Below the pieces are notes generated by a model. The model was not told the DNA's origin and searched no databases. It saw nothing but the letters and a program-made list of their open reading frames with translations. A stretch of 64,000 nt of DNA from Roseococcus suduntuyensis (GTDB taxonomy: Bacteria > Pseudomonadota > Alphaproteobacteria > Acetobacterales > Acetobacteraceae): NCBI RefSeq assembly GCF_014196305.1, contig NZ_JACIDJ010000001.1:916290-980289 (forward strand). The letters run 5' to 3'. Below are positions 5,119-40,211 of the stretch, piece after piece. Each line of letters begins with the position of its first letter. Positions within the stretch are counted from its first letter, which is position 1. Made by a program: the position numbers and the translations under genes.

Positions 5119-5573
5119 TGAGCCGCGAATATCCGGACCGTCCCTGGATCGGCATCGGTGTCATCGCCTTCCGTGGGGATGAGGTGCTGCTGGTCCGCCG
5201 CGGCAAGCCGCCGCGCCTGGGTTCCTGGTCCTTGCCCGGCGGCGCGCAGCATTTGGGCGAGACGGTTCAGGAGGCCGCGCGGCGCGAATTGCTGGAGGAG
5301 ACGGGCATCGAGGTCGGCCCCCTGCTGCTGGCCGATGTGGTGGACGCCGTCACGCATGATGACGCTGGCGCGGTGCGCTACCACTACACCATCGTGGATT
5401 TCTGCGGCGAATGGGCGGGCGGAGAGGCCCGGCCCGGCGATGACGTGGACGCGGTGGCCTGGGCGCGCCCCGAGGCGCTGGACGCCTATGCCCTGACGCG
5501 CGAGGCCCAGGCGGTGATCGCGCTCGCCCGTCTCAGGATGCAGGCTGAAGCGGCTGATTCACGCCTTCGGTGA
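5118..5573 (+). CDS. Nudix hydrolase
   Basis: A 151-residue Nudix-fold pyrophosphohydrolase. The Nudix box is complete: G-x5-E-x7-REL-x-EE-x-G appears as GAQHLGE, then RRELLEETGIEV. This predicts a metal-dependent hydrolase of a nucleoside diphosphate linked to some other moiety, and the substrate cannot be told from sequence. N-terminal IGIGVIAFRGDEVLLVRRGK fits the ADP-ribose/NADH-type subfamily. The ATG at 5118 overlaps the stop of the DUF4340 gene (TGATG). The stop at 5571-5573 lies inside the first hairpin element of the following repeat pair, so the last residues (EAADSRLR) are encoded by repeat DNA. Confidence 0.88.
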   Translation: MSREYPDRPWIGIGVIAFRGDEVLLVRRGKPPRLGSWSLPGGAQHLGETVQEAARRELLEETGIEVGPLLLADVVDAVTHDDAGAVRYHYTIVDFCGEWAGGEARPGDDVDAVAWARPEALDAYALTREAQAVIALARLRMQAEAADSRLR

Positions 5574-5655
5574 TTCCACCAAAGGCGATCAGACGCCTTC
5601 GTCCTGACGCGGCGGATTCACACCCTGGTCGAAGCCGGCCAGGGTGATCCGACGC
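5550..5655. repeat. Stop-associated hairpin element (family A), two copies
   Basis: Copy 1 spans 5550-5596: left arm GCGGCTGAT, TCA bulge at 5559-5561, right arm ATCAGACGC at 5588-5596. Copy 2 spans 5609-5655: left arm GCGGCGGAT, TCA at 5618-5620, right arm ATCCGACGC at 5647-5655. The changed T in copy 2 (CGGAT) is matched by a changed A in the partner arm (ATCCG). The copies lie between convergent genes. The Nudix stop is inside copy 1, and the last base of copy 2 is the first base of the complement of the permease TAG (5655-5657). Confidence 0.85.
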
Positions 5656-7310
5656 TACCGCCGCTTCATCGCCCGTGTCAGCGCCACAACCGGCAACAGC
5701 CCCGCCACCACGATGAGCAGCGCGGAGGTGCTGGCCTCCGCCAGCCTTTCGTCGGAGGCGAGGTTGTAGACGCGCACCGCCAGCGTGTCGAAGTCGAAGG
5801 GGCGCACGATCAGCGTGGCCGGCAGCTCCTTCATCGTGTCCACGAAGACCAGGATGGCGGCGGTGAAGATGGCCCCGCGCGAGAGCGGCAATTCCACGCG
5901 CCGCACCGCCTCGCCCGGCCCGCAGCCGAGCGAACGCGCGGCCATGCCGAAGGAGGGCTTGAGGCGTGTCAGCCCGCTTTCCACCGCCTGCAAGGCCACG
6001 CCCAGGAAGCGTGCGAGATAGGCGAAGACCAGCGCCACGATGGTGCCCGACAGCAGCAGCCCCGTGCTGATGCCGAAATTGGCGCGCATCCAGGCGTCCA
6101 GTGCGTTGTCGAACAGGCCGAAGGGCACCAGCACCCCCACCGCGATGACCGAGCCCGGCACGGCATAACCCAAGGATACCAGCCGGTTCGCCGCGCGCTG
6201 CCCCCGCCCCGGATGCAGCCGCGCCGCCCATGCCAGCCAGGCGGCGATGATCACGGCCAGGAAGGCGGTGATGGAGGCGAGCGTCAGCGAGTTCAGCAGG
6301 AAGGGCAGGAAGCGGTGCGGCGAGAGTGGGTCCCCCGCCTCCAGCATCAGGGCGAAGAGCGCGCCGGCCGGCACCAGGAAGCCCAGCGCCAGTGGTGCCA
6401 GGCAGGCCAGCAGTGCAAGCCACGCCTTTACGCCGCGCAGGGGCACGGGCTGGAAGGGGGCGTGGCGCGTCGTCATCGGGTGGAAGCGGCGGCCGCCGCG
6501 GCTCGCGTGTTCCAGCGCCAGCAGCAGGGCCACGCACATCAGCAGCACGGCGGCCAATTGGCTGGCCGCACCCCGGTCGGCCATGCCGAACCAGGCCTCG
6601 TAGATGCCGGTGGTGAAGGTGCGCAGGCCGAAATACTGCACGGTGCCGAAATCGGCGAAGGTCTCCATCAGCACCAGGGCCACGCCGGCGGCCAGGGCAG
6701 GCCGCGCCAGCGGCAGCGCCACATGCCAGAACACCCGCCCGAGCGAATGCCCCAGCGTGCGCGAGACCTCCACCAGGCAGGTGGATTGCGCGAGGAAAGC
6801 GGCCCGGCACAGTAGGTATACATAGGGGTAGAGCACCATGGAGAGCACCAGCGCGGCGCCCTCCAGGCTGCGCATCTCGGGGAACCAGTATTCGCCGAAG
6901 CGCAGCCCCGTCACGTCGCGCACCAGGCTTTGCGCGGGGCCCGCCACGTCCATCAGCCAGGTCCAGGCATAGCCGGCCACATAGGCCGGCATGGCGAGTG
7001 GCAGCAGCAGCGCCACCTCCAGCACGCGATGGCCCGGAAAGCGGCAGCAGGTGACCAGCCAGGCGGTGACGGCCCCCGCGCTGCCGGCCAGCAGCGCCAC
7101 CAGCAGCCCCAGCACCAGGGTGGTGGCCAGCATCTCGGGCAGGAAGGTGGTGGCGATGTGCCACCACACGGCGCCCGCCGGCGTCACGGCCGCCGCCAGC
7201 ACCGCCCCGATGGGCATGGCCAGCACGAGCGCCACCAGCAGCGTCAGCCGCGCCCAGGCCGGGGTGCGGCGGGGGCGGGCCATGCTGGGGGGGGCCGTCG
7301 TTACGCCCAT
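5655..7310 (-). CDS. ABC transporter permease, FbpB-type iron(III) uptake
   Basis: A 551-residue permease with two fused BPD transmembrane domains, the architecture of FbpB/ThiP-type importers. Each half carries an EAA loop: SRTLGHSLGRVFWHVALPLA in the N half and ARSLGCGPGEAVRRVELPLS in the C half. About twelve hydrophobic segments are visible. The family imports Fe3+ or related ligands with a periplasmic binding protein and an ATPase, and neither is encoded nearby, so partners must lie elsewhere. The chosen start is at 7310, and an internal ATG at 7283 (MARPRRTP) is an alternative. It converges on the Nudix gene across two family A elements. Confidence 0.88.
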   Translation of the reverse strand: MGVTTAPPSMARPRRTPAWARLTLLVALVLAMPIGAVLAAAVTPAGAVWWHIATTFLPEMLATTLVLGLLVALLAGSAGAVTAWLVTCCRFPGHRVLEVALLLPLAMPAYVAGYAWTWLMDVAGPAQSLVRDVTGLRFGEYWFPEMRSLEGAALVLSMVLYPYVYLLCRAAFLAQSTCLVEVSRTLGHSLGRVFWHVALPLARPALAAGVALVLMETFADFGTVQYFGLRTFTTGIYEAWFGMADRGAASQLAAVLLMCVALLLALEHASRGGRRFHPMTTRHAPFQPVPLRGVKAWLALLACLAPLALGFLVPAGALFALMLEAGDPLSPHRFLPFLLNSLTLASITAFLAVIIAAWLAWAARLHPGRGQRAANRLVSLGYAVPGSVIAVGVLVPFGLFDNALDAWMRANFGISTGLLLSGTIVALVFAYLARFLGVALQAVESGLTRLKPSFGMAARSLGCGPGEAVRRVELPLSRGAIFTAAILVFVDTMKELPATLIVRPFDFDTLAVRVYNLASDERLAEASTSALLIVVAGLLPVVALTRAMKRR

Positions 7311-7424
7311 GGGAAGGTGCGAGGCATTCTCATCTCGCGCAGCCTTACCCGAAGGCGGCCGGGCCCGCCATGCCCCTGCGGGTCATGGCCTGCGGCGGGC
7401 GGCGCCTGCCGCCGGTGCCGCGCA

Positions 7425-7467
7425 GCCAGGCGCGCGGATGCGCGCGCCCGGCGATGGAGGGCAGGAA
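7425..7467. repeat. Palindromic intergenic repeat, family B copy 2
   Basis: This matches 1315-1357 closely: GCCAGGCGCGCGGATGCGCG against GCCAAGCGCGCGGA-GCGCG, then both end GAGGGCA(A)GGAA. It is followed by a 10-base imperfect hairpin GCAGGAAGGG / CCCTTCTTGC just beyond the stop of the flavin reductase gene. The rest of the 7311-7472 gap is a run of GC hairpins without an ORF. Confidence 0.55.
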
Positions 7468-7472
7468 GGGCC

Positions 7473-8108
7473 TCAACCCTTCTTGCGGGCCTCCCACTCC
7501 GCCATGGTCAGGCGGGGCACCTCGACCCGGTCGGTGGTGCGGGCATACCAGCCGCGGCCGTGCATGCGGCCCACGAGGTCGAGCTTGGGGGTGTCGATGT
7601 AGTGGCGGGCGGGGTCCATCACCGCGTCGTCGCGCACATGCATGCCCACGACCTTGCCGAGCACGATGGTGTGCTCACCGGCCTCGACCAGCTGGAAGGT
7701 CTCGCATTCCAGGGCGACGGGGCTTTCGCCGATGCGGGGCGGCTTCACCTTGGCGGAGGGCACCTGGGTGAGTTCCGCCTCGGCCAGCTCGTCCACGCCG
7801 GGGGCGAAGTCGGTGGCCGTGATGTTCATGTGCTGGATGTGCGAGAAGGGCACCAGGCACACCACGAACTGGCCGGTGGCCTTGATGTTGGCCAGCGTGT
7901 CCTTCGGGCTGCCCTCGGGGCGCGGCCCGCAGCCGATGCCCACCACCACGGGGTTCGAGGAGAAGGCATTGAAGAAGGAATAGGGGGCGGCGTTCACCAC
8001 GCCCGCCTCGTCCTGCGTCACCACCCAGGCGATGGGGCGCGGCACCACGGTGCTGACCACCAGCTTGTAGCAGTCGGCGGGGGACATCTTCTCGAAATCG
8101 AACATCAT
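7473..8108 (-). CDS. Flavin reductase-like FMN-binding protein
   Basis: A 211-residue protein of the flavin reductase domain family (DIM6/NTAB type), a split-barrel FMN-binding fold. Recognisable blocks are VVPRPIAWVVTQDEAGVVN near residue 22, AAPYSFFNAFSSNPVVVGIG and the KDTLANIKATGQFVVCLV segment. Members act as NAD(P)H:flavin oxidoreductases for two-component monooxygenases or as FMN-dependent oxygenases. No monooxygenase lies next to it, so the physiological partner is unknown. The start is the first of two adjacent ATGs, preceded by GGAGG at about nine bases. It diverges from the chemoreceptor gene across 125 bases. Confidence 0.88.
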   Translation of the reverse strand: MMFDFEKMSPADCYKLVVSTVVPRPIAWVVTQDEAGVVNAAPYSFFNAFSSNPVVVGIGCGPRPEGSPKDTLANIKATGQFVVCLVPFSHIQHMNITATDFAPGVDELAEAELTQVPSAKVKPPRIGESPVALECETFQLVEAGEHTIVLGKVVGMHVRDDAVMDPARHYIDTPKLDLVGRMHGRGWYARTTDRVEVPRLTMAEWEARKKG

Positions 8109-8233
8109 GGGCGGGGGCCTCCGGTTGTGGCCGCAAGTTGGGCGGGGTCGCCCTGCCTGTCGAGGGGGTGGTGTTCATCGTCGCTTAAGCGGCGTGGGCG
8201 ATCCTGGGCCCGATCGGCCTGCGAGGAAAACCC

Positions 8234-10552: not shown

Positions 10553-10561
10553 GCTTGTTGC

Positions 10562-10659
10562 GCGACTGATTCACGCGGCCGGCTGTGCCGCCCGCGATCA
10601 GGCGCGGGTCGCTGCGCGACTGATTCACGCGGCCGGCTGCGCCGCCCGCGATCAGGCGC
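10562..10659. repeat. Stop-associated hairpin element (family A), two copies
   Basis: Copies at 10562-10605 and 10616-10659 are nearly identical (period 54). Left arm GCGACTGAT, then TCA, then a GC-rich inner stem, then right arm ATCAGGCGC. They fill the gap between the convergent chemoreceptor and xerD genes. The xerD stop codon (10652-10654) is read from the right arm of copy 2. The chemoreceptor TAG lies nine bases before copy 1. Confidence 0.88.
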
Positions 10660-11548
10660 GGGACAGCGGGTGGTGCTCCGCCAGCACCGCCCGCAGCTTC
10701 TCCTCCATCACGCGCGTGTAGATCTGCGTGGTGGCGATATCGGCATGGCCCAGCAGCATTTGCAGGCTGCGCAGATCGGCGCCGCGCGCCAGCAGGTGCG
10801 TGGCGAAGGAATGGCGCAGCACGTGGGGGCTCACGCGCTCGGGGTCGAGCCCCGCCGCCTCGGCCGCCTGCTTCAGCAGCAGCCCCACGCTCTGCCGCGT
10901 CATGTGGCCATTGGCCCCGCGCGAGGGCAGCAGGTAGCGCCCCGTGCGCGGTCTGCCCTTGGTGCTTTCCACCAGCCCCGCCCGTGCCTGGGCCGCCGCC
11001 TCCTTCGCGCGGCGTGACAGCGGCACCAGCCGTTCCCGCCCGCCCTTCCCGCGCACCATGACCAGCGGCGTGTCCTCGCGCAGCGCGCCGGCGGGCAGCG
11101 TCACCAGCTCGGAGACGCGCAGGCCGGAGGCATAGATCATCTCGATGGCGGCCACGGCCAGCGCGGCCTTGCTCTCGGGCAGGGTTTCGGCGCCGGCCAG
11201 CAGGGCTTGCACCTCGGCCTCGGTGAGCGCCCGGGGGAGGGGGGCGGGCAGCTTGGGGCTGTCCAGCAGCTCGGTCGGGTCGTCGGCGCGGTGGCCCTCG
11301 CGCGCCAGGAAGCGGTAGAACTGCCGCAGGGCGGAGAGGCGCCGCGCCTGGGTGCGGGGCGAGAGACCGATGGCGGCCAGGCCGCGCAGATAGGTCCGCA
11401 GCGAATCGGGGTCGGCCGTGGCGAGGTCGCCGCCCAGGGCGACCAGCGCATCCTCCAGGTCACGGCGATAGGCATCTGTGGTGTTGCGGGCGGCGCCGCG
11501 CTCGGCCGCCATCATCTCCAGGAAGGCTTCGAGCAGCGCGCCGGACAC
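10652..11548 (-). CDS. xerD: Site-specific tyrosine recombinase XerD
   Basis: A 298-residue tyrosine recombinase that resolves chromosome dimers at dif together with XerC. All catalytic residues are present: R144 (SGLRVSEL), K168 (RGKGGRE), H242 and R245 (PHVLRHSF), H268 (LLGHAD) and nucleophile Y277 (QIYTRV). The N-terminal SAM-like core-binding domain (1-100) and full family length argue for a Xer protein rather than a phage integrase. XerD fits slightly better than XerC, which I cannot exclude. The start is a GTG at 11548, one base after the stop of a 48-codon ORF. The stop is inside a family A repeat, so the C-terminal SRA is encoded by the repeat edge. Confidence 0.9.
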   Translation of the reverse strand: MSGALLEAFLEMMAAERGAARNTTDAYRRDLEDALVALGGDLATADPDSLRTYLRGLAAIGLSPRTQARRLSALRQFYRFLAREGHRADDPTELLDSPKLPAPLPRALTEAEVQALLAGAETLPESKAALAVAAIEMIYASGLRVSELVTLPAGALREDTPLVMVRGKGGRERLVPLSRRAKEAAAQARAGLVESTKGRPRTGRYLLPSRGANGHMTRQSVGLLLKQAAEAAGLDPERVSPHVLRHSFATHLLARGADLRSLQMLLGHADIATTQIYTRVMEEKLRAVLAEHHPLSRA

Positions 11549-11549
11549 G

Positions 11550-11696
11550 CTACCTCACCTGGAAGCGATCATTCGGAATGATGCGTTCCACCGCGGTGGG
11601 CGTCACCGGCGGGGGGAAGGCGGCGAACCACAGCACGGCCCCCGCGGCACCGAGCAGCAGAAGCAGGATCAAGGTCAGGATGGGGCGGCGGAACAT
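11550..11696 (-). CDS. Small membrane/exported protein upstream of xerD
   Basis: A 48-codon ORF beginning MFRRPILTLILLLLLGAAGA, a positively charged N-terminus and a strong hydrophobic segment (about 5-27), then a short tail rich in Pro and Val ending RIIPNDRFQVR. It is either a signal-anchored peptide or a single-pass membrane protein. Its TAG (11550-11552) is one base before the xerD GTG, suggesting a shared transcript and translational coupling. The gene faces aroK-aroB divergently. I do not recognise a family. Coding status rests on position, start/stop context and the membrane profile. Confidence 0.5.
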   Translation of the reverse strand: MFRRPILTLILLLLLGAAGAVLWFAAFPPPVTPTAVERIIPNDRFQVR

Positions 11697-11750
11697 GATG
11701 GGCGGTGCGTCCCCTCGCGCGAACAGGCCCGTGTGCTACCTTCCGTCGCC

Positions 11751-20122: not shown

Positions 20123-20163
20123 GCGGCCGATTCACGCCCGGCTATGCCGGGACGATCGGGCGC
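20123..20163. repeat. Stop-associated hairpin element (family A), one copy
   Basis: Left arm GCGGCCGAT (20123-20131), TCA bulge (20132-20134), inner stem CCGGC-TAT-GCCGG and right arm ATCGGGCGC (20155-20163). The last base is the first base of the complement of the dehydrogenase TAG (20163-20165). A partial left-arm-like CTGATTC at 20116-20122 may be a decayed second copy. It lies between two genes on the same strand, so it marks a gene end and not only a convergent junction. Confidence 0.82.
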
Positions 20164-21134
20164 TACCCCGCCAGCTCCGGAATCACCCAGAACGGCTTCT
20201 GCCCCCGCGCCACGCGCTGGCAATTGTCGAAGGCGTTGCGGAAGCGGGCGAGGACGTTGTCGGCCGTGGGGCCGGCCAGATGTGGCGTCAGCACCACATT
20301 GTCGAGCGTGAAGAGAGGGTTGGCGGGCGAGGGTGGTTCCTGCTCGAACACGTCCAGCCCCGCGCCCGCGATGCGGTTCGCGGCCAGCGCGTCATGCAGC
20401 GCCACCTCGTCCACCACCGGGCCGCGGCTGGTGTTCACCAGGATGGCGCTGGGCTTCATGGCGGCGAGTTCGGGCGCGCCGATCATGTGCCGGCTCGCCG
20501 CCGTCAGCGGCACGTGCAGGGTCACGATGTCGGACAGCGCCAGGATTTCCGGCAGCAGGCGGAAGCGCACCTCCAGCGCGTCCTCCGCTTCTTCGGTCAG
20601 GCGGGCCTGATCGAAATAGATGACGTGCATGCCGAAGGCGCGCGCCAGCCGCGCCACCTTCTTGCCGATATTGCCCAGCCCCACGATGCCGAGCGTGCGG
20701 CCGCGCAGCTCGATCAGCCCCGGCTGGTCGTTGGACTGGCCGCGCCAGCCGCCGGCGGTGACGGTGCGGTGCTGCCAGATGAGGCGCTTGCCCACCGCCA
20801 GCATCAGCATCAGCGCGTGCTCGGCCACCGCATTGCCGTTGGCGCCGCCATTGGTGCTGATGGGCACGCCCGCACCCCGGGCCGCCTCGATGTCGCAGCG
20901 GTCATAGCCGGCGCTCAGCAATTGCAGCAGCCGCAGCCTGGGCGCGCCGGCATAGAAGGCGGTGTCCAGGCCCGCGCTGGCGAAGCCCACCAGGAAGTCC
21001 GCGTCCTGCACGGCCTCCGTGAAGGCGGGCGTGCCGGGGCGGGCCACCACCATGTCGAAGCCGCGCGGCAGGATGTCGCGCGCCATCTCGGCGGGGCTCA
21101 TGGGGTTTTCCATCAGGACGAGCTTGTGGGTCAT
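20163..21134 (-). CDS. D-isomer-specific 2-hydroxyacid dehydrogenase
   Basis: A 323-residue NAD(P)-dependent dehydrogenase that interconverts 2-hydroxy and 2-oxo acids (glyoxylate, hydroxypyruvate, phosphoglycerate or similar). The nucleotide-binding motif is GIVGLGNIGKKVA (149-161). The catalytic triad is R237 (NTSRG), E266 (EQEPP) and H285 (TPHLAG). Short length without an ACT or regulatory domain argues against SerA. ATG 21134 follows GGAGAAAGACGCCCG, and the open frame upstream to 21230 shows no family similarity. It diverges from the unknown gene at 21229. The stop is fused to a family A element. Confidence 0.9.
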   Translation of the reverse strand: MTHKLVLMENPMSPAEMARDILPRGFDMVVARPGTPAFTEAVQDADFLVGFASAGLDTAFYAGAPRLRLLQLLSAGYDRCDIEAARGAGVPISTNGGANGNAVAEHALMLMLAVGKRLIWQHRTVTAGGWRGQSNDQPGLIELRGRTLGIVGLGNIGKKVARLARAFGMHVIYFDQARLTEEAEDALEVRFRLLPEILALSDIVTLHVPLTAASRHMIGAPELAAMKPSAILVNTSRGPVVDEVALHDALAANRIAGAGLDVFEQEPPSPANPLFTLDNVVLTPHLAGPTADNVLARFRNAFDNCQRVARGQKPFWVIPELAG

Positions 21135-22712: not shown

Positions 22713-23933
22713 ATGCCGGATGCTGCCGAGGCCAGCGTGGAGACGCGCGCCTCCTGGACCATCGCCTTCGCCACCACCACCATGCTGGCGCTCGCGGCCG
22801 GCGCGCCGCTGACGGTGGTCATCGGCCTCGTTCCCATCGCGGAGGATCTCGGCACCGGTCGGTCCTTGCCCTCGCTCGCCACCTCGCTCGCCTATCTGGG
22901 CACGGGCGTGGGCGGGGTGATGTGCGGGCTGCTGGCTTCGCGCTTCGGGCAGCGGGCGGTGGCCATGCTGGGGGGCTTCGCCATCCTGGCCGGGCTGACG
23001 CTCGCCTCGCTGGGCGAGGCCTGGTCGCTGCTGGTGGGCATCGGGCTGGGGGTGGGGCTGTTCGGCAATGGCGCGTTGTTCGCACCCATGGTCGCCTATG
23101 CCTCGCTGTGGTTCGACCGGCGGCGGGGGACGGCGCTGGCGCTGGTTTCGTCGGGGCAATACATCGCGGGCTTCGTGTGGCCCTTTGTCTTCGAGCGCGC
23201 CATCGCCTGGGTGGGGTGGCAATGGACGATGCTGGGCTATGGCATCTTCGCCTCGGCGGTGGTGGTGACGCTGGGCGCGCTGGTGATCCGCCCCGCGCCG
23301 GTGCCGGTGGGGGGATATGGCGGGGTGCGGGCCTCGGCCGGGCGGCGGGTGTTGGGGATGCGGCCCAATGTGGCGCTGGCCGTCATCGCCTCAGCCTCCT
23401 TCCTCTGCTGCATCCCGATGGCCATGCCGGCGGCGCATCTGGTGGCCTTCTGCGGCGACCTCGGCATCGCGGCCTCGCGGGGGGCGGCCATGCTGTCGGT
23501 GCTGCTGCTCTGCGCCTTCCTGGCGCGGCAATTCTGGGGGTGGCTCTCGGATCGGATCGGCGGGCTGTGGACGGTGATGTTCGGCTCGCTCGCGCAGGTG
23601 GTCGGCATGCTGGGCTTCCTGGCGACGCAGGACGAGGCGGGGCTGTTCTTCGTCTCGGCCGCCTATGGCTTGGGCTTCGGCGGCATCATTCCCGCCTATG
23701 TGCTGGCGGTGCGCGGGCTGTTCCCGGCGCTGGAGGCGGCGTGGCGCGTGCCGGTGCTGTTGTTCGTGTCGCTGTCCGGCATGGCGGCCGGCGCCTGGCT
23801 GGCCGGCTTCATCTATGACCGGGTGGGCTTCTACGCGGCCGCCTGGTGGGTGGGGATCGCGGTGAACCTGGTGCAGCTGGTGATCATCGCGGAGCTGCTG
23901 CGGCGGCAGCACCGCGAGGGGCGCAGCGCCTGA
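22713..23933 (+). CDS. MFS transporter
   Basis: A 406-residue major facilitator with about twelve membrane helices. The loop 2-3 motif is present as GLLASRFGQRAVAMLGG (GxxxDRxGxR-like, with Ser in place of Asp), and ARQFWGWLSDRIGGLWTV is the corresponding loop in the second half. The pattern FDRRRGTALALVSSGQYIAG resembles oxalate/formate-antiporter-type and monocarboxylate carriers, though substrate assignment is not safe. ATG 22713 has GGAGGG five bases upstream. The stop TGA (23931-23933) is inside the left arm of the first of three family A elements, so the final Ser-Ala is encoded by the repeat edge. Confidence 0.88.
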   Translation: MPDAAEASVETRASWTIAFATTTMLALAAGAPLTVVIGLVPIAEDLGTGRSLPSLATSLAYLGTGVGGVMCGLLASRFGQRAVAMLGGFAILAGLTLASLGEAWSLLVGIGLGVGLFGNGALFAPMVAYASLWFDRRRGTALALVSSGQYIAGFVWPFVFERAIAWVGWQWTMLGYGIFASAVVVTLGALVIRPAPVPVGGYGGVRASAGRRVLGMRPNVALAVIASASFLCCIPMAMPAAHLVAFCGDLGIAASRGAAMLSVLLLCAFLARQFWGWLSDRIGGLWTVMFGSLAQVVGMLGFLATQDEAGLFFVSAAYGLGFGGIIPAYVLAVRGLFPALEAAWRVPVLLFVSLSGMAAGAWLAGFIYDRVGFYAAAWWVGIAVNLVQLVIIAELLRRQHREGRSA

Positions 23934-24104
23934 TCCGCGGAGGCGGAATCGGCGGAGCGGTGAATCAGTCGCGGCAAAGCGCCTGATCCGCGGAGGCGGC
24001 AGCCGGCGCGGTGAATCAGTCGCGGCAAAGCGCCTGATCCGCGGAGGCGGCAGCCGGCGCGGTGAATCAGTCGCGGCAAAGCATGGCGCAGCGCCTGATC
24101 AGGC
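23926..24104. repeat. Stop-associated hairpin element (family A), three copies plus a collapsed one
   Basis: Reverse orientation. Copies at 23926-23972, 23979-24023 and 24030-24074 each read GCGCCTGAT, inner stem, TGA, ATCAGTCGC. Periods are 53 and 51. A stemless derivative GCGCCTGATCAGGC lies at 24091-24104, in effect a left arm joined to a right arm. The MFS stop lies in copy 1 and the glutathione peroxidase stop (24099-24101) in the collapsed copy. The array fills the gap between these convergent genes. Confidence 0.88.
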
Positions 24105-25763: not shown

Positions 25764-25921
25764 GACACATCGGGCCAGTGTCACGCTGATGTGTCAATCG
25801 AGCATTTCGCAGCGCAGCAACATCCGGAGGATATGGGAATGATTGATATTCAAGGGTTTCACACCATCCATGTGCGACTCGACGGGCAGCCACGCCTTGG
25901 CTACAAGTGTATTGGCACATC
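25764..25921. promoter_or_regulatory. Candidate MocR operator and promoter region
   Basis: Three copies of one half-site lie in the 164-base divergent gap: GACACATC at 25764-25771, its inverse GATGTGTC at 25788-25795 (8-base arms, 16-base spacer), and ATTGGCACATC at 25911-25921. The last matches 10 of 11 bases of the complement of 25788-25798. The minus strand also reads TTGACA across 25791-25796, a perfect -35 hexamer for the DUF1127 operon, but I see no good -10. A perfect Shine-Dalgarno complement ACCTCCTT is at 25751-25758. Confidence 0.5.
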
Positions 25922-25946
25922 CCTAGCCAGGAGCCCGGGACACTGA
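25839..25946 (+). CDS. Possible 35-codon leader ORF ahead of the MocR gene
   Basis: An ORF encoding MIDIQGFHTIHVRLDGQPRL plus 15 more residues, preceded by GGAGG (25826-25830) at optimal spacing. An ATG at 25833 is in frame but too close. It has clearly lower GC and AT-rich third positions early on, unlike its neighbours. It overlaps the annotated GTG start of the regulator in another frame, and its TGA (25944-25946) falls exactly where the conserved part of the regulator (LTDWTPRL) begins. It could be a translated leader or chance. Confidence 0.35.
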   Translation: MIDIQGFHTIHVRLDGQPRLGYKCIGTSLARSPGH

Positions 25947-27304
25947 CCGACTGGACCCCCCGCCTCTCCCCCGGAACCGGCCTCGCGCATGAGCGGCTGT
26001 CCGCCGCCCTCGCCGAGGACGTCACGCGCGGCCACCTGCCGGTGGGCGCCCGCCTGCCCGCCCACCGCGAACTCGCGCGGGAGCTGGGCCTGAGCGTCGG
26101 CACCGTCACCCGCGCCTATGCCACCTTGCAGCGCCGTGGCCTGGCACGGTCCGAGCATGGGCGGGGAATGTTCGTGCTGGCCGCCCCCCGCCGCGCGCCG
26201 GACCGGCTGGATTTCAGCGTGAACCTGCCCGCGGCCACCCTCACGCCGCGCATGCTGTCGGACATGCTGGACGCCGCCGCAGCGGCGCTCGACCCCACCC
26301 TCTTCGCCAGCTACAGCCCGCCCGCCGGCACCGCGCAGGACCGGCAATTCCTCGCCGCGCACCTCGCCGCCGCGCGAGGTCTGCGGGTGGAGCCGGGGCA
26401 TCTGCTCATCACCACCAGCGCGCAGCACGCCATCTTCATCGCCCTGGCCACCGCGCCGCCAGGCCCCGTGGCGGTGGAGGCGCTGAGCTACCCCCAGGCG
26501 CTGACCGCCGCGCGCCGGCTGGGTCGGCGCCTCGTGCCCATCGCGCTGGATGCGGAAGGCGTCTGCCCGGACGCGCTGGAGGCGGCACTGCGCGCGCCCG
26601 ACCCGCCGCGCGCCCTCTACCTCGTTCCCACCTTGCAGAACCCGACGGGTGCCGTGATGTCCGCCGCGCGCCGCGCGCGCATCGTGGCGCTCGCCCGGCG
26701 GCACGACCTGATCCTCATCGAGGACGATGTCTATGCCTGCCTGGCGCCCGAGGCGGGGCCCTCGCTGGCGGAACTGGCGCCGGAGCGGGTGTTCCACGCC
26801 TCCAGCTTTTCCAAGAGCCTCGCTCCCGGCCTGCGCCTCGGCTACCTGGCCTGCCCGCCCACCCTGGTGGACCCGGCCTGCGACTGGCTGCAATCCACCA
26901 CCTGCATGACCAGCCCGCATTCCTGCGCGCTGATGCGCCACGCGGTGGCCGATGGGCTGCTGGATTCGGTGGCCACCTCCATCCGCGCCGAGACCGCCCG
27001 CCGCCACGCCCTGGCGCTGGAGGTGCTGGGCGATGCGGTCTTCCCCACCGCGCTGCCGGGGCTGCAGGTGTGGCTGCCCATGCCGGTGGGGCGCGCGCGC
27101 GACATCGTGCGCCGGGCGGGGCAGCGCAACATCCAGATCGCCTCGCCGCTGGCCTTCATGGCGGACCCTACGGCGCAAGATGCCGGGCTGCGCCTCTGCC
27201 TGGGCAATGTGACCGAGGCGGAGCTTGGCCCCGCGCTGGAGATCATCGCCGGGCTGGTGCGCGACGAGGCCGCGGCGCGGCTGGACGAGGGCGCGGTGAT
27301 CTAG
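25907..27304 (+). CDS. MocR-type transcriptional regulator (GntR DNA-binding plus aminotransferase domain)
   Basis: About 465 residues. An N-terminal GntR winged helix (about 25-95: LPAHRELARELGLSVGTVTR then AYATLQRRGLARSEHGRGMF) is fused to a fold-type I aminotransferase (about 110-460). The PLP lysine is K303 in SSFSKSLAPGLRLGYL, and NPTG (in PTLQNPTGAVMS) and the Asp of IEDDVYACL are present. MocR proteins sense PLP or amino-compound adducts and usually control an adjacent divergent operon, here DUF1127-methyltransferase-peroxidase. The start is uncertain: GTG 25907 is the only good in-frame upstream codon, but family members often begin at the DWTP motif (about 25949). The TAG shares a base with a family A element. 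Confidence 0.88.
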   Translation: MYWHIPSQEPGTLTDWTPRLSPGTGLAHERLSAALAEDVTRGHLPVGARLPAHRELARELGLSVGTVTRAYATLQRRGLARSEHGRGMFVLAAPRRAPDRLDFSVNLPAATLTPRMLSDMLDAAAAALDPTLFASYSPPAGTAQDRQFLAAHLAAARGLRVEPGHLLITTSAQHAIFIALATAPPGPVAVEALSYPQALTAARRLGRRLVPIALDAEGVCPDALEAALRAPDPPRALYLVPTLQNPTGAVMSAARRARIVALARRHDLILIEDDVYACLAPEAGPSLAELAPERVFHASSFSKSLAPGLRLGYLACPPTLVDPACDWLQSTTCMTSPHSCALMRHAVADGLLDSVATSIRAETARRHALALEVLGDAVFPTALPGLQVWLPMPVGRARDIVRRAGQRNIQIASPLAFMADPTAQDAGLRLCLGNVTEAELGPALEIIAGLVRDEAAARLDEGAVI

Positions 27305-27396
27305 CGTCCGATCGTCGCCGCGCAGCGGCGGCGTGAATCGGCCGCGTGGCCAAGGCGCCCGATCGTCGCCGCGCAGCGGCGGCGTGAATCGGCCGC
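27304..27396. repeat. Stop-associated hairpin element (family A), two copies
   Basis: Reverse orientation copies at 27304-27345 (GCGTCCGAT ... TGA ... ATCGGCCGC) and 27355-27396 (GCGCCCGAT ... TGA ... ATCGGCCGC), period 51, with inner stem CGCCGC-GCA-GCGGCG. The first base is the last base of the MocR TAG (27302-27304). The last base is immediately followed by the complement of the amidohydrolase stop (27397-27399). The element pair is the entire intergenic region. Confidence 0.88.
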
Positions 27397-28713
27397 TCAG
27401 CCCGCCGCGATCCACTCCGCCAGCACCGCGATGGCCTCCATCAGGTCCGCCGTCTCCATCGCCTCGCGCGGGTTGTGGCTGCCATTCGCGTTGCGGACCA
27501 GCAGCATGCCCGTGGGCACGCCGGCCGCCGCGAAGTTGTTGGCGTCATGGCTGCCCGGGCTGTTCAGCCGGGGTGCCGCGACACCCAGCCGCGCGGCCGC
27601 GCCCGCCAGCCCCTCCACGATGGCGGCATCCATGATGCCCGGCGCCGCCCAGCTGCGTTCGCCCAGCACGATGGTGACGTGGCGGCGTTCCGCCACCTCG
27701 GCCGCGATGGCGCCGAGCTGTGCCTCCAGCGCCTGCAGGTGCCCCGCATCATAGGCGCGCAGGTCGAGGCTGAGGGTGAAGTCGCCCGGCACCACCGTCA
27801 TGCTGTGGCGGTCGGGCAGGGTGTGGAAGCGGCCGATGGTGACGGCCATGGGGTAGCCCGCATCCTCCTCGGCCAGCCAGAAGCGTTCGAGGGCCAGCGC
27901 GAAATCCGCCCCGGCCATCGCGGCATCGCGGCGGAAGCGGTGCGGCAGGCCGGTATGCGCGTCCTCGCCCAGGATGCGGATGCGCGGGTGGCGCAGATTG
28001 CCCGGCGTGGCGAGGCAGATGCCGAGCGGCGCGCCGGCCTCGATCAACTGCGGGGCCTGCTCGATATGGATTTCCAGGTAGGCCCCGATCTCGCGCGGGT
28101 CGCGCAGGGGCAAGCCCGCGCGCAGCCGCGCGGGGTCGCCGCCGCAGGCCGCGATGCTTTGCGCCAGGTTCAGGCCGGTGCGGGCGTGCGGCAGGTCCAG
28201 CGCGCCCGGAGGCAGCCGCGCCAGCATGCCGCGCGAGCCCACCAGGCCGAGGCCGAACCACACCGCCTCCTCGCAGCGCAGGGCCAGCACCTCGATGTCG
28301 CGGCGCGGCGTGATGCCGGCGGCCTGCAGCGCCGCCACCGCGCCCAGCCCCGCGATGACGCCCGCGGCCCCGTCGAAATTCCCGCCCTGCGCGATGCTGT
28401 CCAGATGCGAGCCGATCAGCAGGGGTTTGCCGGCGGGCTCGCGCGCCGCCCAGCGCAGCGAGAGGTTGGCGGCGGCATCCGTGCTGGCCGCGAGGCCCAG
28501 TGCCGCGCCGGCCTCGGCCACCAGGGCGAAGGCGGCGTTCTCGCCGGGGCCGAAGGCCTCGCGCGTGATGCCGGGCGGGTCGGCACCCACCCTCGCCACC
28601 TCATCGAGCAGCCGCTGCACCAGGGGCGCCTGCGCGGCCACGGCGTCGCGCAGCCCGAGGGAGGGCAACGCCATGGGCGGGAGGACGGGGCCGGGGCCGC
28701 CGCGCGGCCTCAT
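27397..28713 (-). CDS. M20-family Zn-dependent amidohydrolase (N-carbamoyl-amino acid hydrolase / allantoate amidohydrolase)
   Basis: A 438-residue M20 metallo-amidase. Metal-ligand blocks are LLIGSHLDSIAQGGNFDGAA (His and the bridging Asp), RCEEAVWFG (Glu), LEIHIEQAP (His) and SPGSHDANNFA (His). The order and the IHIEQ motif identify the hydantoinase/carbamoylase group (allantoate amidohydrolase, beta-ureidopropionase, L-carbamoylase), which release ammonia and CO2 from N-carbamoyl compounds. The ATG at 28713 overlaps the stop of the crotonase gene upstream (ATGA). An internal ATG at 28674 (MALPSLGL) also fits. No hydantoinase or allantoinase is adjacent, so the substrate remains open. Confidence 0.87.
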   Translation of the reverse strand: MRPRGGPGPVLPPMALPSLGLRDAVAAQAPLVQRLLDEVARVGADPPGITREAFGPGENAAFALVAEAGAALGLAASTDAAANLSLRWAAREPAGKPLLIGSHLDSIAQGGNFDGAAGVIAGLGAVAALQAAGITPRRDIEVLALRCEEAVWFGLGLVGSRGMLARLPPGALDLPHARTGLNLAQSIAACGGDPARLRAGLPLRDPREIGAYLEIHIEQAPQLIEAGAPLGICLATPGNLRHPRIRILGEDAHTGLPHRFRRDAAMAGADFALALERFWLAEEDAGYPMAVTIGRFHTLPDRHSMTVVPGDFTLSLDLRAYDAGHLQALEAQLGAIAAEVAERRHVTIVLGERSWAAPGIMDAAIVEGLAGAAARLGVAAPRLNSPGSHDANNFAAAGVPTGMLLVRNANGSHNPREAMETADLMEAIAVLAEWIAAG

Positions 28714-31904: not shown

Positions 31905-31912
31905 TCCTCCCC

Positions 31913-32371: not shown

Positions 32372-32403
32372 ACAGAAATTCTGTCAATTTTCATGTGAAA
32401 TTG
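32372..32403. promoter_or_regulatory. AT-rich operator-like inverted repeats in a divergent promoter region
   Basis: In the 284-base gap between DUF4212 and the gene at 32464, a conspicuous AT-rich island contains ACAGAA-A-TTCTGT (32372-32384) and, directly after, TTTCA-TG-TGAAA (32389-32400), flanked by CAAT and ATTG. Both are regulator-like palindromes in otherwise 70% GC DNA. The rest of the gap (32180-32371) holds no ORF that I trust. Confidence 0.5.
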
Positions 32404-32463
32404 TCGGTGTGCTTGCGGCGGCCCTCCGGCCCCCTGCACACTGGGCGCAAATGGGGGGGTGAC

Positions 32464-33096
32464 ATGGCGGTGCAGGGCTGGATCGGGGCCATCTTCAAGG
32501 AGGCGCGCGGCCGCGCGGACTGGCCCGCCGCCGTGGAGGCCATCCGCGCCGGCGCGGCCTACCTGGCCCAGGGCGCGAGCTATTCCTACCTGCGCGCCCG
32601 TACATTGCTGGCCGGGCCGCGCCTGTTCCAGGACGCGGATTTCGGCTTCGCGCTGACCATCTGCAAATGGGAGGGCTTCGGCGTCGCCGCGCAGGACCTC
32701 ATCCTGATCCTGGAGGCGGAACTGCGCGACCGCCTGCCGCCCGACCCCGAAGCCCGCGCCCCCGTGCTGGCCGCGCTCTACCGCGAGGTGCTGGAGAGCG
32801 AAGCCCTGCCCGAGCACCGCGCCGCCGCGGGCTGGGATGACCTGGTGGCGGAGTTCGACGCGCGCCTGCCCGTCTTCCTCTCCCGCCCGCCCTTGAAGCC
32901 CGACGCCATCTCCATCGCCACCGCGCTGCGCCTGCTGGAACACGCCCCCATCGAGGAGAGCGTGCGCCAGGCCGACAAGATGATGGTGGTGAACAACGTG
33001 GCGTTCCGCTTCATCGAGTATCAGGCGAAGCTGCGCCGCAAGCTCGACCTGCCCGGCCTGGCCGAGGAGCTTTCGGCGCGGATGCGCGTGCCGTGA
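32464..33096 (+). CDS. Conserved protein of unknown function, coupled to the DUF294 gene
   Basis: A 210-residue soluble protein, mostly helical, without signal peptide, membrane segment or a motif I can name. Notable blocks: WIGAIFKEARGRADWPAAVE, FGFALTICKWEGFGVAAQDL and the C-terminal DKMMVVNNVAFRFIEYQAKL. The ATG at 32464 follows a GGGGGGGTGAC sequence. Its TGA overlaps the GTG of the exonuclease-CBS-DUF294 gene (GTGA), so the two are almost certainly made together. The position opposite a symporter operon suggests a part in its regulation or in signalling with the DUF294 protein, which is inference. Confidence 0.75.
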   Translation: MAVQGWIGAIFKEARGRADWPAAVEAIRAGAAYLAQGASYSYLRARTLLAGPRLFQDADFGFALTICKWEGFGVAAQDLILILEAELRDRLPPDPEARAPVLAALYREVLESEALPEHRAAAGWDDLVAEFDARLPVFLSRPPLKPDAISIATALRLLEHAPIEESVRQADKMMVVNNVAFRFIEYQAKLRRKLDLPGLAEELSARMRVP

Positions 33097-35225: not shown

Positions 35226-35232
35226 GCCGGCG

Positions 35233-36720: not shown

Positions 36721-36831
36721 GGCCTTCGGCCCTTCTCCTGGACGTGCGGCTGTTGCCGCTTGCGGCCAAGGTTAAGGTTCCGGGCACGCGCCCTGCAACC
36801 AGGACGTGTGCGGCGGCCTGGGTCGCGGGTT

Positions 36832-36852
36832 GGGCGGCCGGTCAGGCCGCCC
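36832..36852 (-). terminator. Candidate hairpin after the Bug receptor gene
   Basis: Perfect 8-base arms GGGCGGCC (36832-36839) and GGCCGCCC (36845-36852) around GGTCA, 12 bases beyond the stop of the receptor gene. There is no T-run. Elsewhere the 36721-36864 gap shows nothing notable. Confidence 0.4.
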
Positions 36853-36864
36853 TCGCGGGCGCGA

Positions 36865-37851
36865 CTAGATCCGCAGGTTCAGGCGCCGGATCATCACGCC
36901 CTCCTCCTCGAAGGTCCGGCGGGCGAAGGCGGCGTAGTCCTCGCTGTTCATGTACCAGGGCAGCATGTCGTAGCGGTCCAGCACGTCCAGATGCGCCCGG
37001 TCCTCCAGCGCCTCCTTGAAGGCGTCGTGCAGCTTGGCCACGATCTCGGCCGGGATGCCCTTCGGGCCACCGAAGCCATAGGGCGAGGCGGAGACGACGG
37101 GCACACCCACCTCCTGCAGCGTCGGCACGTCGGGGAAGCGCTTCGCGCGCTCACGCCCCCACACCGCCAGAACGCGCACGCGGCCATCGAGCGCCAGCGG
37201 CGCCCAGCCCGAGCTGTCGGCCAGCACGTCGATCTGCCCGCCCAGCAGGGCCGCGATGTTCTCCGCGAAGCCGCGGAAGGGCACGTGCAGGAACTCGGCA
37301 TCGGCGGCCAGCGCGATCTGCTCCATCGTGATGTGCAGCGAGGTGCCCACGCCCGGCGAGCCGTAGGAGAGGCGGCCAGGCTGCGCCTTCGCGCGCTCGA
37401 TCAGCTCCTGGTGGGTGCGGATGGGGCTGTCGGCGCGCACCACCGTGCCGAACAGGTAGCCCGTCAGGTGGATGACGTAGGTGAAGTCCTCCAGCGGGTT
37501 GAACAGCGGGCGCTGCACCATCTGCGGGTGACGGAACACGCTGATGGGCAGCTGGCCCAGCGTGTAGCCATCGGGCTGCGCCTGCGCGACCGCCTGCGGG
37601 CCGATGACGCCGCCGGCACCGGGCCGGTTTTCGATGGAGATGGGCTGGCCCAGCTTGCGCGACGCGATTTCCGCGATGGCGCGCATCTGCATGTCGGTGC
37701 TGCCACCCGGCGTCCAGGGGCAGATCAGGCGGATGGGGCGGTTGGGGAAGGGCGACTGGCCGATGGCGGGCGTGGCGAGGGATGCGGCGCCCGCGGCGCC
37801 CAGCATGAAGGTGCCACGGCGGCTGATGCCGCCCGCGCGGATGATGGTCAT
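36865..37851 (-). CDS. Bug-family (TctC) tripartite tricarboxylate receptor
   Basis: A 328-residue periplasmic solute receptor. The signal sequence contains SRRGTFMLGAAGAASLATPA, a twin-arginine-like start ending near AIGQ. The mature protein begins FPNRPIRLICPWTPGGSTDM and has the Bug signature IENRPGAGGVIGPQAVAQAQ then PDGYTLG. Bug receptors bind carboxylates or aromatic acids, and many are orphans without membrane partners beside them. Here it follows CaiB- and CitE-like genes on the same strand (105-base gap). That suggests uptake of the acid that those enzymes activate and cleave. The start is an ATG after GGGAGGATAAAAACCC. Confidence 0.92.
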   Translation of the reverse strand: MTIIRAGGISRRGTFMLGAAGAASLATPAIGQSPFPNRPIRLICPWTPGGSTDMQMRAIAEIASRKLGQPISIENRPGAGGVIGPQAVAQAQPDGYTLGQLPISVFRHPQMVQRPLFNPLEDFTYVIHLTGYLFGTVVRADSPIRTHQELIERAKAQPGRLSYGSPGVGTSLHITMEQIALAADAEFLHVPFRGFAENIAALLGGQIDVLADSSGWAPLALDGRVRVLAVWGRERAKRFPDVPTLQEVGVPVVSASPYGFGGPKGIPAEIVAKLHDAFKEALEDRAHLDVLDRYDMLPWYMNSEDYAAFARRTFEEEGVMIRRLNLRI

Positions 37852-37956
37852 GGGTTTTTATCCTCCCGGTGGATCGCCGGACATGCCGAGGCAGTCCGTC
37901 TGGTCGAGGCGCAGTTTGGAACCGCGAGCCCCCGGGCGCAACCCGCGCCCCCCGCC

Positions 37957-38796
37957 TCAGCCGCCGGCCAACGAGAGGGTGCGCCGCGCGCGGATCAGGA
38001 TGGGTTCGTCCACCATCATCCCGTCCACGACGAAGGAACCGCGCCCTTCGCGCGCCGCCGCCTCCGCGGCCGCGAGCTGCCGCCGCGCGAGGTCCACCTC
38101 CGCCGCACCGGGCGAGAAGCCCTCGTTCAGGATGGGCACGACGGAGGGGTGGATGCAGCTCGCCCCCACCAGCCCCGCGCGGCGCGAACGCGCCACCAGG
38201 GCGCGCAGCTTCTCGGCGTCGCGATAATCGGCCACGGTGCCGAGCGTGCCCAGCGGCGCGACACCCGCCGCGACGGCGGCCAGCACCATCTGCCGCTTGG
38301 CCAGCGCGATGATCTCGTCATCCGGCGCCGCGCCGATCTCGGCGGCCAGGTCCTCCGCGCCGATCAGCAGGCCCGCGACCAGCGGCGAGGCGCGCGCCAT
38401 CTCCGTCATGCGCGGCAGGGCGGCGGCGGTCTCGATCATCACGATCATGCGCATGGGGCGGGGTGCGGCGGCCAGCATTTCGGCCGCCAACTGCACATGG
38501 TCTGGCCCCAGCGCCTTGGTCAGCAGGATGCCATCGGCCCCCGCCGCCATTGCGGCCTCGATGTCGCCCACGGCCAGGGCGAGGGGCCGGTTCACGCGCA
38601 CCAGCACATCCGCGCCGCCGCCGCGCGCGGTGGGCACCGCTTCGGCGAGAGCCGCGCGGGCCTCCGCCTTGCGGTCGGGCGGCACGCTGTCCTCCAGGTC
38701 CAGCAGCACGGCATCGGCGCCGGCCGTGGCCGACTTCGCCACGAAACGCGGCACGTTCGCCGGCACATAGAGCATGGAGCGCCAGATGCGGTTCAT
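37957..38796 (-). CDS. CitE/HpcH-HpaI-type CoA ester lyase
   Basis: A 279-residue TIM-barrel lyase of the citrate lyase beta-subunit-like group. It begins WRSMLYVPANVPRFVAKSA, with the CoA-binding Arg. Metal and substrate residues are in LLDLEDSVPPDRKAEAR, VMIETAAAL (Mg2+-binding Glu) and IGAEDLAAEIG (Asp). These enzymes cleave malyl-, citramalyl- or methylmalyl-CoA to acetyl-CoA or propionyl-CoA and a 2-oxo acid. The ATG overlaps the CaiB stop by four bases. CoA-transferase then lyase then receptor is a coherent route: import, activation, cleavage. The precise acid cannot be read from sequence. Confidence 0.9.
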   Translation of the reverse strand: MNRIWRSMLYVPANVPRFVAKSATAGADAVLLDLEDSVPPDRKAEARAALAEAVPTARGGGADVLVRVNRPLALAVGDIEAAMAAGADGILLTKALGPDHVQLAAEMLAAAPRPMRMIVMIETAAALPRMTEMARASPLVAGLLIGAEDLAAEIGAAPDDEIIALAKRQMVLAAVAAGVAPLGTLGTVADYRDAEKLRALVARSRRAGLVGASCIHPSVVPILNEGFSPGAAEVDLARRQLAAAEAAAREGRGSFVVDGMMVDEPILIRARRTLSLAGG

Positions 38797-40025
38797 GGAT
38801 TGCGTCCTCCATCGAGCACCACGCCGGCCGCGCGCAGGCGGGCGAGTTCGGCCTCGCCCAGCAGCGGCGCCAGCAGCGCGTCATTGTCTTGCCCCAGCGC
38901 GGGGGCCGGGTTGCGCTGGATGCCGGGGGTGGCGGAAAGGCGCGCCGTCTCGCCCGCCGTGGGCAGCCAGCCGCCGGGCATCTCTTCGTCCGGCACCTCG
39001 ATCAGCGCCTCGCGTCCGGCCACGTAGCGGTCCTGCGCCAGGCCCGCCACGTCCATGATGGGACCGATGGTGACGCCGTCGCGGTCGAACTGCGCCAGGG
39101 CCTGTTCCATGGTCAGCTCCGCGATGGCGTCGCGCACCACGCCATCGATCTCGTCCAGATGGCGGATGCGGTCGGCATTGGTGCGGAAGCGTGGGTCATC
39201 CACCAGCTCGGGCCGGCCGATGCTGCGCATCAGCTTCACGAACATGGCCTGGGTGGAGCTGGACAACCCCACCCATCCGCCATCCTTCGTGCGGTAGGCG
39301 TTGCGCGGCGCGGTGTTGGTGCTGCGGCTGCCGGTGCGCGGCTTCACCTTTCCGGTGATGCGGTGGTTGGCCATCTGCGGCTCCAGCACCGTGAAGATCG
39401 GCTCGAAGAGCGAGAGGTCCATCACCTGGCCTTGCCCGGTGGCCTCGGCATGGCGCAGCGCGATCATGGCCGTCGCCGCGCCATAGAGGCCGGCATAGGC
39501 ATCGGCCATGAACATCGGCGGCAGCACGGGTTCGCGGTCCTCGAAGCCGTTGATGGCGGCGAAGCCCGAATAGCCCTCGACCAGCGTGCCGAAGCCCGGC
39601 TTGTGCGCGAAGGGCCCCGTCTGCCCCCAGCCCGAGATGCGCGCGATGACGAGGCGCGGGTTGATGGCGTGCAGCGTGGCGGGGGCGAGGCCCATCTCCT
39701 CCAGCACGCCGGGGCGGAAGCTTTCCACCAGCATGGCGGCGTCTTCCACCAGGCGCTTGATGATGGCGATGGCGTCCGGCTGGCGCAGGTCGAGGCAGAG
39801 GCTGCGCTTGTTGCGGCACCAGGTCTTCCAGGAGGTCTCGATGCCGCCGACCTTCCAGGCGCGCAGCGAATCCCCTGCCGGCGGTTCGACCTTGATGACC
39901 TCGGCGCCGTGGTCCGCCAGCACCTTCGTGAGCATGTTGCCGGCGACGAGGCGCGAGAGGTCCACGACCCGCACACCCTCCAGCGCGCCACGCGCGCTCG
40001 CGTCGAATTCCCGCCGCGTGAGCAT
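38793..40025 (-). CDS. CaiB/BaiF family III CoA-transferase
   Basis: A 410-residue family III CoA-transferase. The N-terminal signature is LEGVRVVDLSRLVAGNMLTK, with HGAEVIKVEPPAGDSLR following. The catalytic aspartate is D175 in MFMADAYAGLYGA, and NKRSLCLDL and ESFRPGVLEEMGL are typical. It would transfer CoA from a donor such as succinyl-CoA to a carboxylic acid, probably the substrate of the CitE-like lyase encoded next. A strong GGAGGAGG lies 10 bases before the ATG. Two family A elements occupy the upstream gap and belong to the end of the TAXI gene. Confidence 0.92.
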   Translation of the reverse strand: MLTRREFDASARGALEGVRVVDLSRLVAGNMLTKVLADHGAEVIKVEPPAGDSLRAWKVGGIETSWKTWCRNKRSLCLDLRQPDAIAIIKRLVEDAAMLVESFRPGVLEEMGLAPATLHAINPRLVIARISGWGQTGPFAHKPGFGTLVEGYSGFAAINGFEDREPVLPPMFMADAYAGLYGAATAMIALRHAEATGQGQVMDLSLFEPIFTVLEPQMANHRITGKVKPRTGSRSTNTAPRNAYRTKDGGWVGLSSSTQAMFVKLMRSIGRPELVDDPRFRTNADRIRHLDEIDGVVRDAIAELTMEQALAQFDRDGVTIGPIMDVAGLAQDRYVAGREALIEVPDEEMPGGWLPTAGETARLSATPGIQRNPAPALGQDNDALLAPLLGEAELARLRAAGVVLDGGRNP

Positions 40026-40108
40026 GGGCGTTGCCTCCTCCAGACTGGCGGGGCGACGCTATGGGCTGCCCCGGGGCGGGTCAATGCGACCCGCCCCGGT
40101 GCGATTTA

Positions 40109-40211
40109 GCGACTGATTCACCGCTTCGGCGATTCCGCCTCCGCGGATCAGGCGCGTATTTTCAGCGACTGATTCACCGCTTCGGCGATTCCGCCTCCGC
40201 GGATCAGGCGC
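40109..40211. repeat. Stop-associated hairpin element (family A), two copies
   Basis: Copies at 40109-40155 and 40165-40211 (period 56) are almost identical: GCGACTGAT, TCA, CCGC, inner hairpin GGCG-ATTC-CGCC, GCGG, ATCAGGCGC. They lie just downstream of the TAXI receptor gene, whose stop is at 40221-40223, and upstream of the CaiB gene on the same strand. This is the only locus where no stop codon touches the element. Confidence 0.86.

Follow-up and report, generated by a model that had tools for sequence, protein, structure and literature searches.

What kind of element is a short hairpin that recurs at gene ends, and what might bring it there? The question is raised by a stretch of 64,000 nucleotides from Roseococcus suduntuyensis (family Acetobacteraceae; positions 916,290 to 980,289 of contig NZ_JACIDJ010000001.1, assembly GCF_014196305.1), the whole of which is called the window here. 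The original prediction, made from the letters of this stretch, described twelve copies of a hairpin resembling repetitive extragenic palindromic (REP) elements at six gene ends, and all twelve were found at their places with the pattern given for them. When each of the 12 intervals is read with TTCAC on the left, 12/12 fit the consensus GCG-R-CNGAT-TCA-C...G-ATCNG-R-CGC, a purine lies opposite a purine at position 4 in 12/12, and TCA is without a partner in 12/12. The left end of a copy is taken as its TCA side, the right end as the foot away from TCA, and its strand as the one reading TTCAC. The hairpin represents a real REP-like family of wide distribution, with the behaviour of a non-autonomous mobile hairpin. 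Its main interest is an exact tie to stop codons on one side: the right foot meets them in the single register TA/GCG, a junction newly described here. The exact stop register, the one-sided junction, the purely head-to-tail order of copies and the presence or absence of copies between close species all go beyond what had been predicted.

A hairpin repeat family of Roseococcus

The hairpin is a genome-wide repeat family of Roseococcus and is patchy in the Acetobacteraceae. A covariance model built from the twelve copies has at least 151 matches in the genome of R. suduntuyensis (G000), so the repeat first seen at six gene ends has many further copies. The pattern GATTCAC-N(18-32)-GATC occurs at 269 places in this genome versus 1 for the reversed pattern, and a strict scan of 860 kb that includes the window finds 135 copies in 77 arrays versus 0 in the reversed sequence. 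Within the window GATTCAC occurs 12 times, in 12/12 cases inside a hairpin copy (mean of 100 shuffles 4.2, maximum 10). Rfam has 0 matches at or above the gathering score in the window.

The scan of relatives bore out a family of wider reach, with model matches (E value of 0.01 or better) in 29/60 genomes. These are the source genome and 20/20 other sampled Roseococcus (21/21 in all), 7/15 from other genera of Acetobacteraceae, and one genome from outside the family, in which the only match is weak. The strict pattern is present in 95/397 Acetobacteraceae genomes, many of them with single matches that may be due to chance. Copy-rich genomes by this pattern are the source genome (176) and the Roseococcus genomes G003 (105) and G004 (97), followed in other genera by g16 (G035 67, G307 66, G149 50) and g46 (G065 21). 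Two further Roseococcus genomes (G007 and G010) have 0 strict matches but 12 and 15 by the covariance model. A wider scan of genome records returned at least 99 matching stretches. Labels were seen for 80 of these and name Roseococcus thiosulfatophilus, Falsiroseomonas, Rhodovarius, Roseomonas, Rubritepida, Asaia, metagenome-assembled genomes (MAGs) of Acetobacteraceae, Rhodospirillales or Alphaproteobacteria, and one Streptomyces. Plasmid records searched with one array gave no match. Three contigs of a viral collection (L303, L304 and L305) hold one exact pattern match each.

The pairing of the stem is kept by compensatory change. With one copy taken per array (n=92), the variable outer position shows Watson-Crick pairing in 98.9% of arrays, versus 45.5% after halves are exchanged among arrays; the corresponding values are 97% and 50% for inner pair 2 and 87% and 44% for inner pair 3. 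In the model alignment of 150 rows, 127 of them distinct, pairing holds in 97.2% of cells, changes on both sides of a pair occupy 163 cells versus a shuffled mean of 56 (0/500 shuffles reach 163), and pairings that are slid along fall to 20-38%. Because this alignment was fitted to the model, the swap test on the 92 arrays, whose scan demands GATTCAC, GATC and most arm pairs, is the fairer of the two. Between orthologous copies the stem shows 11 changes at 384 sites and the loop 23 at 286 (16/18 orthologous pairs), with 8/24 stem positions fixed by the scan. The purine-purine mismatch, which the scan did not demand, is present in 131/135 copies of the 860 kb and in 85/92 arrays sampled by one copy. 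In minimum-energy RNA folds 11/12 window copies form the outer stem; the exception, 23926-23972, takes a different fold on both strands. The covarying pairs, taken with the unpaired purines of position 4, suggest that the hairpin is recognised as a folded single strand.

Copies lie strictly head to tail. Among neighbours within 300 bp, 95 have the same orientation and 0 the opposite one, and no mixed-orientation array was found in 1.26 Mb of the source genome, 0.86 Mb of G004 or 0.71 Mb of G003. Gaps within arrays of the first 860 kb measure 6-12 nt in 56/57 cases and 58 nt in one, and in some arrays a spacer is a copy of the left or right flanking sequence. The predicted gene-end bias is also seen genome-wide: convergent gaps hold 47/90 classed arrays of the source genome (the 92 arrays less one inside a called gene and one at an edge) versus 180/1157 gene pairs. 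In tandem gaps array orientation relative to the genes is even, 16 versus 15 (77 arrays, of which 5/77 overlap a called gene by >30 nt). Thus, as a short imperfect palindrome in many copies, mostly intergenic near 3' ends, the hairpin is a REP in the general sense, a likeness of architecture and behaviour that upholds this part of the original prediction.

Stop codons at the right end

The register was examined at every gene 3' end within 150 bp that faces an element end; offset -1 means that the stop is made of TA plus the first base of the element. Gene ends come from our own simple caller, and the ten genes flanking the window copies are backed by Pfam and NCBIfam matches (Pfam for 10/10 of the flanking proteins scanned). 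Offset -1 occurs at 31/62 right-facing gene ends of the source genome, 15/30 of G004 and 8/23 of G003, versus 0/59, 0/26 and 0/23 left-facing ends. The 54 register sites of these three Roseococcus genomes read TAG in 53 cases and TAA in 1, and background stop usage in the 860 kb is TGA 621, TAG 141 and TAA 47. A second and smaller class has TGA within the arm at offset -8 (5 in the source genome, 4 in G004 and 4 in G003). Additionally, TA follows the right end in 8/35 arrays without a near stop versus 1.6% of intergenic dinucleotides.

The one-sided junction is repeated in the loci of other records. These 87 loci are the 99 stretches minus 12 recognised as R. thiosulfatophilus; the 19 unlabelled stretches may hold more of that species, the Streptomyces locus was kept, and the set includes Rhodovarius lipocyclicus (L146) and MAGs labelled Roseomonas, with some MAGs belonging to Roseococcus. 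Here offset -1 is found in 31/43 right-facing ends versus 0/45 left-facing ends, and the purine-purine mismatch in 112/115 copies.

Comparison with close species shows sites without the element. Around the pair at 27304..27345 and 27355..27396, identity to the window is 91-94% in G003 and G004, neither of which has the two copies; the GntR/aminotransferase gene ends there in TGA in both species versus TAG in the window. For 22 register sites, 27 comparisons gave an allele without the element at the stop, ending in TGA in 12, TAA in 2 and TAG in 13, with gene length unchanged in 23/27. In three of the 27, all from G003 and all ending in TAG (415923, and the probable single site listed as 936412 and 3080970), the stop is free of the element but a copy lies nearby. 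A non-TAG orthologue is found in 14/27 of these comparisons versus 51/225 comparisons of genes without the element (p 0.002), TAG being kept in 174/225 of the latter. From the other side, element-free TGA genes have a TAG orthologue in 22/66 cases if that orthologue carries the motif close to its end versus 36/1416 if not (p 8e-17); these stop comparisons were run both ways among three genomes and are not independent. The orthologue comparisons thus provide evidence that stops near the element may be rewritten. The T of such a stop would be host DNA and the AG would be brought by the element. When the strict motif is followed through 142 orthologous comparisons, 66 show no element at the site, 41 another copy number and 35 the same number; certain pairs enter this tally twice, once from each genome, and copies that have lost GATTCAC or GATC by mutation are scored as empty (e.g., G004 at 921839).

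Copies of the window and their neighbouring genes

The six places were predicted to be gene ends, and five of the six arrays indeed take or share the stop of the gene facing their right end, the sixth lying 9 bp away. At the five, three stops are TAG at offset -1 and two are TGA at offset -8. Copies were located by reading the pattern, and genes were assigned by gene calls with Pfam or other domain matches.

Copies 1 (5550..5596, + strand, also a covariance model match) and 2 (5609..5655, +) form a tandem. The right foot of copy 2 shares its G with the TAG stop (5655..5657, -) of an ABC permease gene (5655-7283, -). On the other side, the TGA stop (5571..5573, +) of a NUDIX gene (5118-5573, +) lies inside copy 1, and the last seven codons of this gene and its stop are copy 1 sequence. 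Copies 3 (10562..10605, +) and 4 (10616..10659, +) are likewise in tandem, and the right arm of copy 4 holds, at offset -8, the TGA stop (10652..10654, -) of a gene for a XerC/XerD-type tyrosine recombinase (10652-11548, -). Copy 5 (20123..20163, +) is single and shares its G with the TAG stop (20163..20165, -) of a 2-hydroxyacid dehydrogenase gene (20163-21134, -).

On the minus strand, copies 6 (23926..23972), 7 (23979..24023) and 8 (24030..24074, identical to copy 7) make up a triple array, and the TGA stop (23931..23933, +) of an MFS gene (22713-23933, +) falls in the right arm of copy 6 at offset -8. A short arm-like stretch, GCGCCTGATCAGGC at 24091-24104, adjoins this array and may be a decayed or deleted copy. 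Copy 9 (27304..27345, -) shares the G of its right foot with the TAG stop (27302..27304, +) of the GntR/aminotransferase (MocR-like) gene (25907-27304, +). Its tandem partner, copy 10 (27355..27396, -), is abutted at its left end by the TGA stop (27397..27399, -) of an M20-type hydrolase gene (27397-28674, -). Copy 11 (40109..40155, +) and the identical copy 12 (40165..40211, +) make up the sixth array, 9 bp from the stop of a gene for a TRAP solute-binding protein (40221-41213, -).

Each of the 12 window copies contains GATTC (a GANTC site) and GATC, which are possible methylation targets. Outside the window, a single copy of the same genome (L067 15157-15203; G000:C1:895157-895203) is bordered on both sides by a direct repeat (about 20 bp) covering a stop codon and the start codon that overlaps it, and G004 has only a short remnant at that site.

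Origin of the junction and its meaning

The hairpin is probably a non-autonomous mobile element that is folded as single-stranded DNA or RNA and joined 3' of a T, often that of a stop codon. Read on the GCGYCNGATC strand, the element is often preceded by T, so that T plus AG(CG) would give TAG whatever the stop of the empty allele; the other (TCA-side) end joins variably. A protein may recognise the folded hairpin through its mismatch and bulge and insert it 3' of T; copies that land in a stop codon would leave the protein intact and would therefore persist, and tandem duplication could then lengthen the arrays. For a gene reading in from the right, the distance between stop and hairpin is 0 nt, and the hairpin would be expected to slow termination or to protect the 3' end. 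In a narrower and rather doubtful form of this idea, an enzyme that is neither a Y1/RAYT (REP-associated tyrosine transposase) nor a reverse transcriptase would seek out stop codons, joining the hairpin 3' of the initial T in TGA, TAA or TAG so that the stop becomes TAG and the protein stays intact. The TCA bulge is the reverse complement of TGA and, speculatively, might help to find the target.

Which enzyme would move the hairpin was sought among transposase and reverse transcriptase domains. As predicted, no RAYT is visible: Y1_Tnp (PF01797) was not found in the source genome, and the wider check for a linked Y1/RAYT gene found it in 1/36 genomes (the source genome included) and in 0/22 further genomes from 10 genera with strict copies. 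The most copy-rich of these 58 genomes are without a match. The only Y1 domains among them are at three loci of G016 (L059, L060 and L061), and these loci hold no strict hairpin copy. A Y1 transposase is not supported as the mobiliser. RVT_1 matches occur in 10/26 genomes searched. In the source genome they lie at G000:C1:904460-905017 (a 549 aa frame, about 11 kb left of the window) and G000:C10:87310-87774 (a 544 aa frame). A reverse transcriptase is not supported as the mobiliser, since RVT_1 was not found in seven copy-rich genomes (G004, G035, G149, G245, G307, G203 and G065). The mobiliser is thus probably neither of these enzymes. A search for IS91-type Y2 transposases matched 0/26 genomes, with control genomes equally silent, and no transposase was recognised by eye among the 25 commonest protein clusters of the 99 loci.

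Several observations weigh against a mobile hairpin joined at stop codons. No movement has been observed, mobility being read from presence and absence between species that differ by about 6%, and no mobilising enzyme was found; reverse transcriptase domains are present in the source genome (2) and G003 (1). Gene ends throughout rest on the simple in-house caller. Insertion is unclean: a matching block was found in 19/27 comparisons, and there a stretch of 0 to 48 nt following the T is unmatched. There is no general target-site duplication, as a direct repeat occurs in 6/164 arrays and no length or offset has |z| above 2.5. Switching in the reverse direction is also raised, less so: element-free TAG genes have a TGA orthologue in 15/42 cases with the motif versus 36/225 without. 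Finally, 13/27 empty alleles already end in TAG versus 17% of all stops, an excess that leaves two other possibilities, that TAG is the preferred target or that the element was lost, indistinguishable there from rewriting.

Comparison with known mobile hairpins places the family near, but not within, the described groups. REPINs and BIMEs are inverted doublets, presumed to be non-autonomous mobile hairpins with turnover in copy number. The Roseococcus hairpin shares this presumed mobility and turnover but has 0 opposite-orientation neighbours within 300 bp. Tc1/IS630-type miniature inverted-repeat transposable elements (MITEs) are short palindromic elements with a TA target; the present hairpin is also a short palindrome with TA at one junction, but there is no TA at its other end and no general target duplication. 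The fixed-length target-site duplication that marks a DDE-type MITE was not found. The CGTC REPs, in the part of their description considered here, are likewise alphaproteobacterial and biased to gene ends, with no dedicated transposase reported (PMC3733652). The same description gives them 8-9 bp stems starting with A and T, loops of 4-5 nt, mostly CCA tails and mainly head-to-head (HH) dimers, and states that they are missing in Acetobacteraceae (PMC3733652); its end, stem start, loop, tail and dimer form do not fit the Roseococcus hairpin. Another alphaproteobacterium, Lichenicola cladoniae, has 1,369 predicted REPs according to a passage of PMC12306157.

GTAG REPs, in extracts of their descriptions, are imperfect palindromes of short length, found in many copies close to the 3' ends of genes, with alternative complementary stem residues (PMC3733652, PMC2817692, PMC8266576), all of which the present hairpin resembles. 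Their terminal TAG is often used as a stop codon (PMC3733652, in the passage on termini), and the GTAG-24 element of P. aeruginosa is described as having unpaired GA residues in the stem, a further likeness. That the arms and bulge differ from those of described REP families, as originally claimed for the enterobacterial and Pseudomonas ones, holds against the text descriptions and one table passage, and so at the level of description. By those descriptions the family is set apart: the tested marks of the described superfamilies (a GTAG or CGTC tag, inverted pairs, a RAYT) are absent from it. Among the papers found on palindromic repeats in Acetobacteraceae or Roseococcus no title or abstract opening reports the family, and among those found on REPs with stop codons none reports stop rewriting.

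Four other explanations share part of this evidence. The hairpin could work as RNA at the 3' ends of messages (a stabiliser, an attenuator of translation termination or an aid to Rho) and be kept in place by selection rather than by mobility. Enrichment in convergent gaps and the conserved structure favour this, as does the finding, in the excerpt of PMC12306157 considered, that E. coli REPs <16 nt from a stop codon down-regulate translation. It is nevertheless improbable, since the site is so often empty in orthologues, orientation in tandem gaps is even, no T-run follows the hairpin in either direction as it would in an intrinsic terminator (flank composition of 77 arrays), and selection alone fails to explain an exact register at a single end. 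A standard GTAG-type REP, moved by a RAYT that has since been lost or acts from elsewhere, would account for the TAG stops; recognition by RAYTs is also described as depending on mismatches and bulges (PMC8266576, in the part available). This seems less probable again. There is no conserved G before TAG, the base before the TAG or TAA stop being G in 26/54 Roseococcus register sites and in 6/31 of other records (C in 18; counted by eye). TAG is found at 53/54 register sites, but TA at the right foot of only 33/77 arrays, so the GTAG foot tag is lacking. Moreover, a Y1/RAYT gene was found in 1/58 genomes, which is not one of the most copy-rich, and not beside the hairpin, and there are no inverted neighbours within 300 bp.

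The two remaining candidates carry little weight. A double-stranded site for a protein such as a methyltransferase or nucleoid protein could draw on the GATTC (GANTC) and GATC of each strict copy, and the GAT/ATC pairs are nearly invariant (123 to 125 of 127 rows of the model alignment). Conservation of GATTCAC and GATC is built into the scans, and a duplex needs neither covariation of the variable positions as pairs nor a position 4 that avoids pairing, which leaves such a site quite unlikely. If a reverse transcriptase copied an RNA hairpin by target priming, one fixed and one variable junction would result, as seen, and RVT_1 is present in the source genome and G003; the failure to find it in the seven copy-rich genomes makes this the least credible of all.

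The spread of REPs that seem to have no dedicated transposase is an open question, stated as such for CGTC REPs in the text of PMC3733652, and the Roseococcus family offers a test case, with well over a hundred copies in the source genome, empty sites in close relatives, a structural mark that is fixed and a junction that is exact at one end. These features make both the enzyme and the effect on translation termination testable. If stop codons are indeed sought, the element would have a built-in safe-harbour rule for its insertions. The family also bears on stop-codon usage, in that presence of the element goes with replacement of TGA by TAG.

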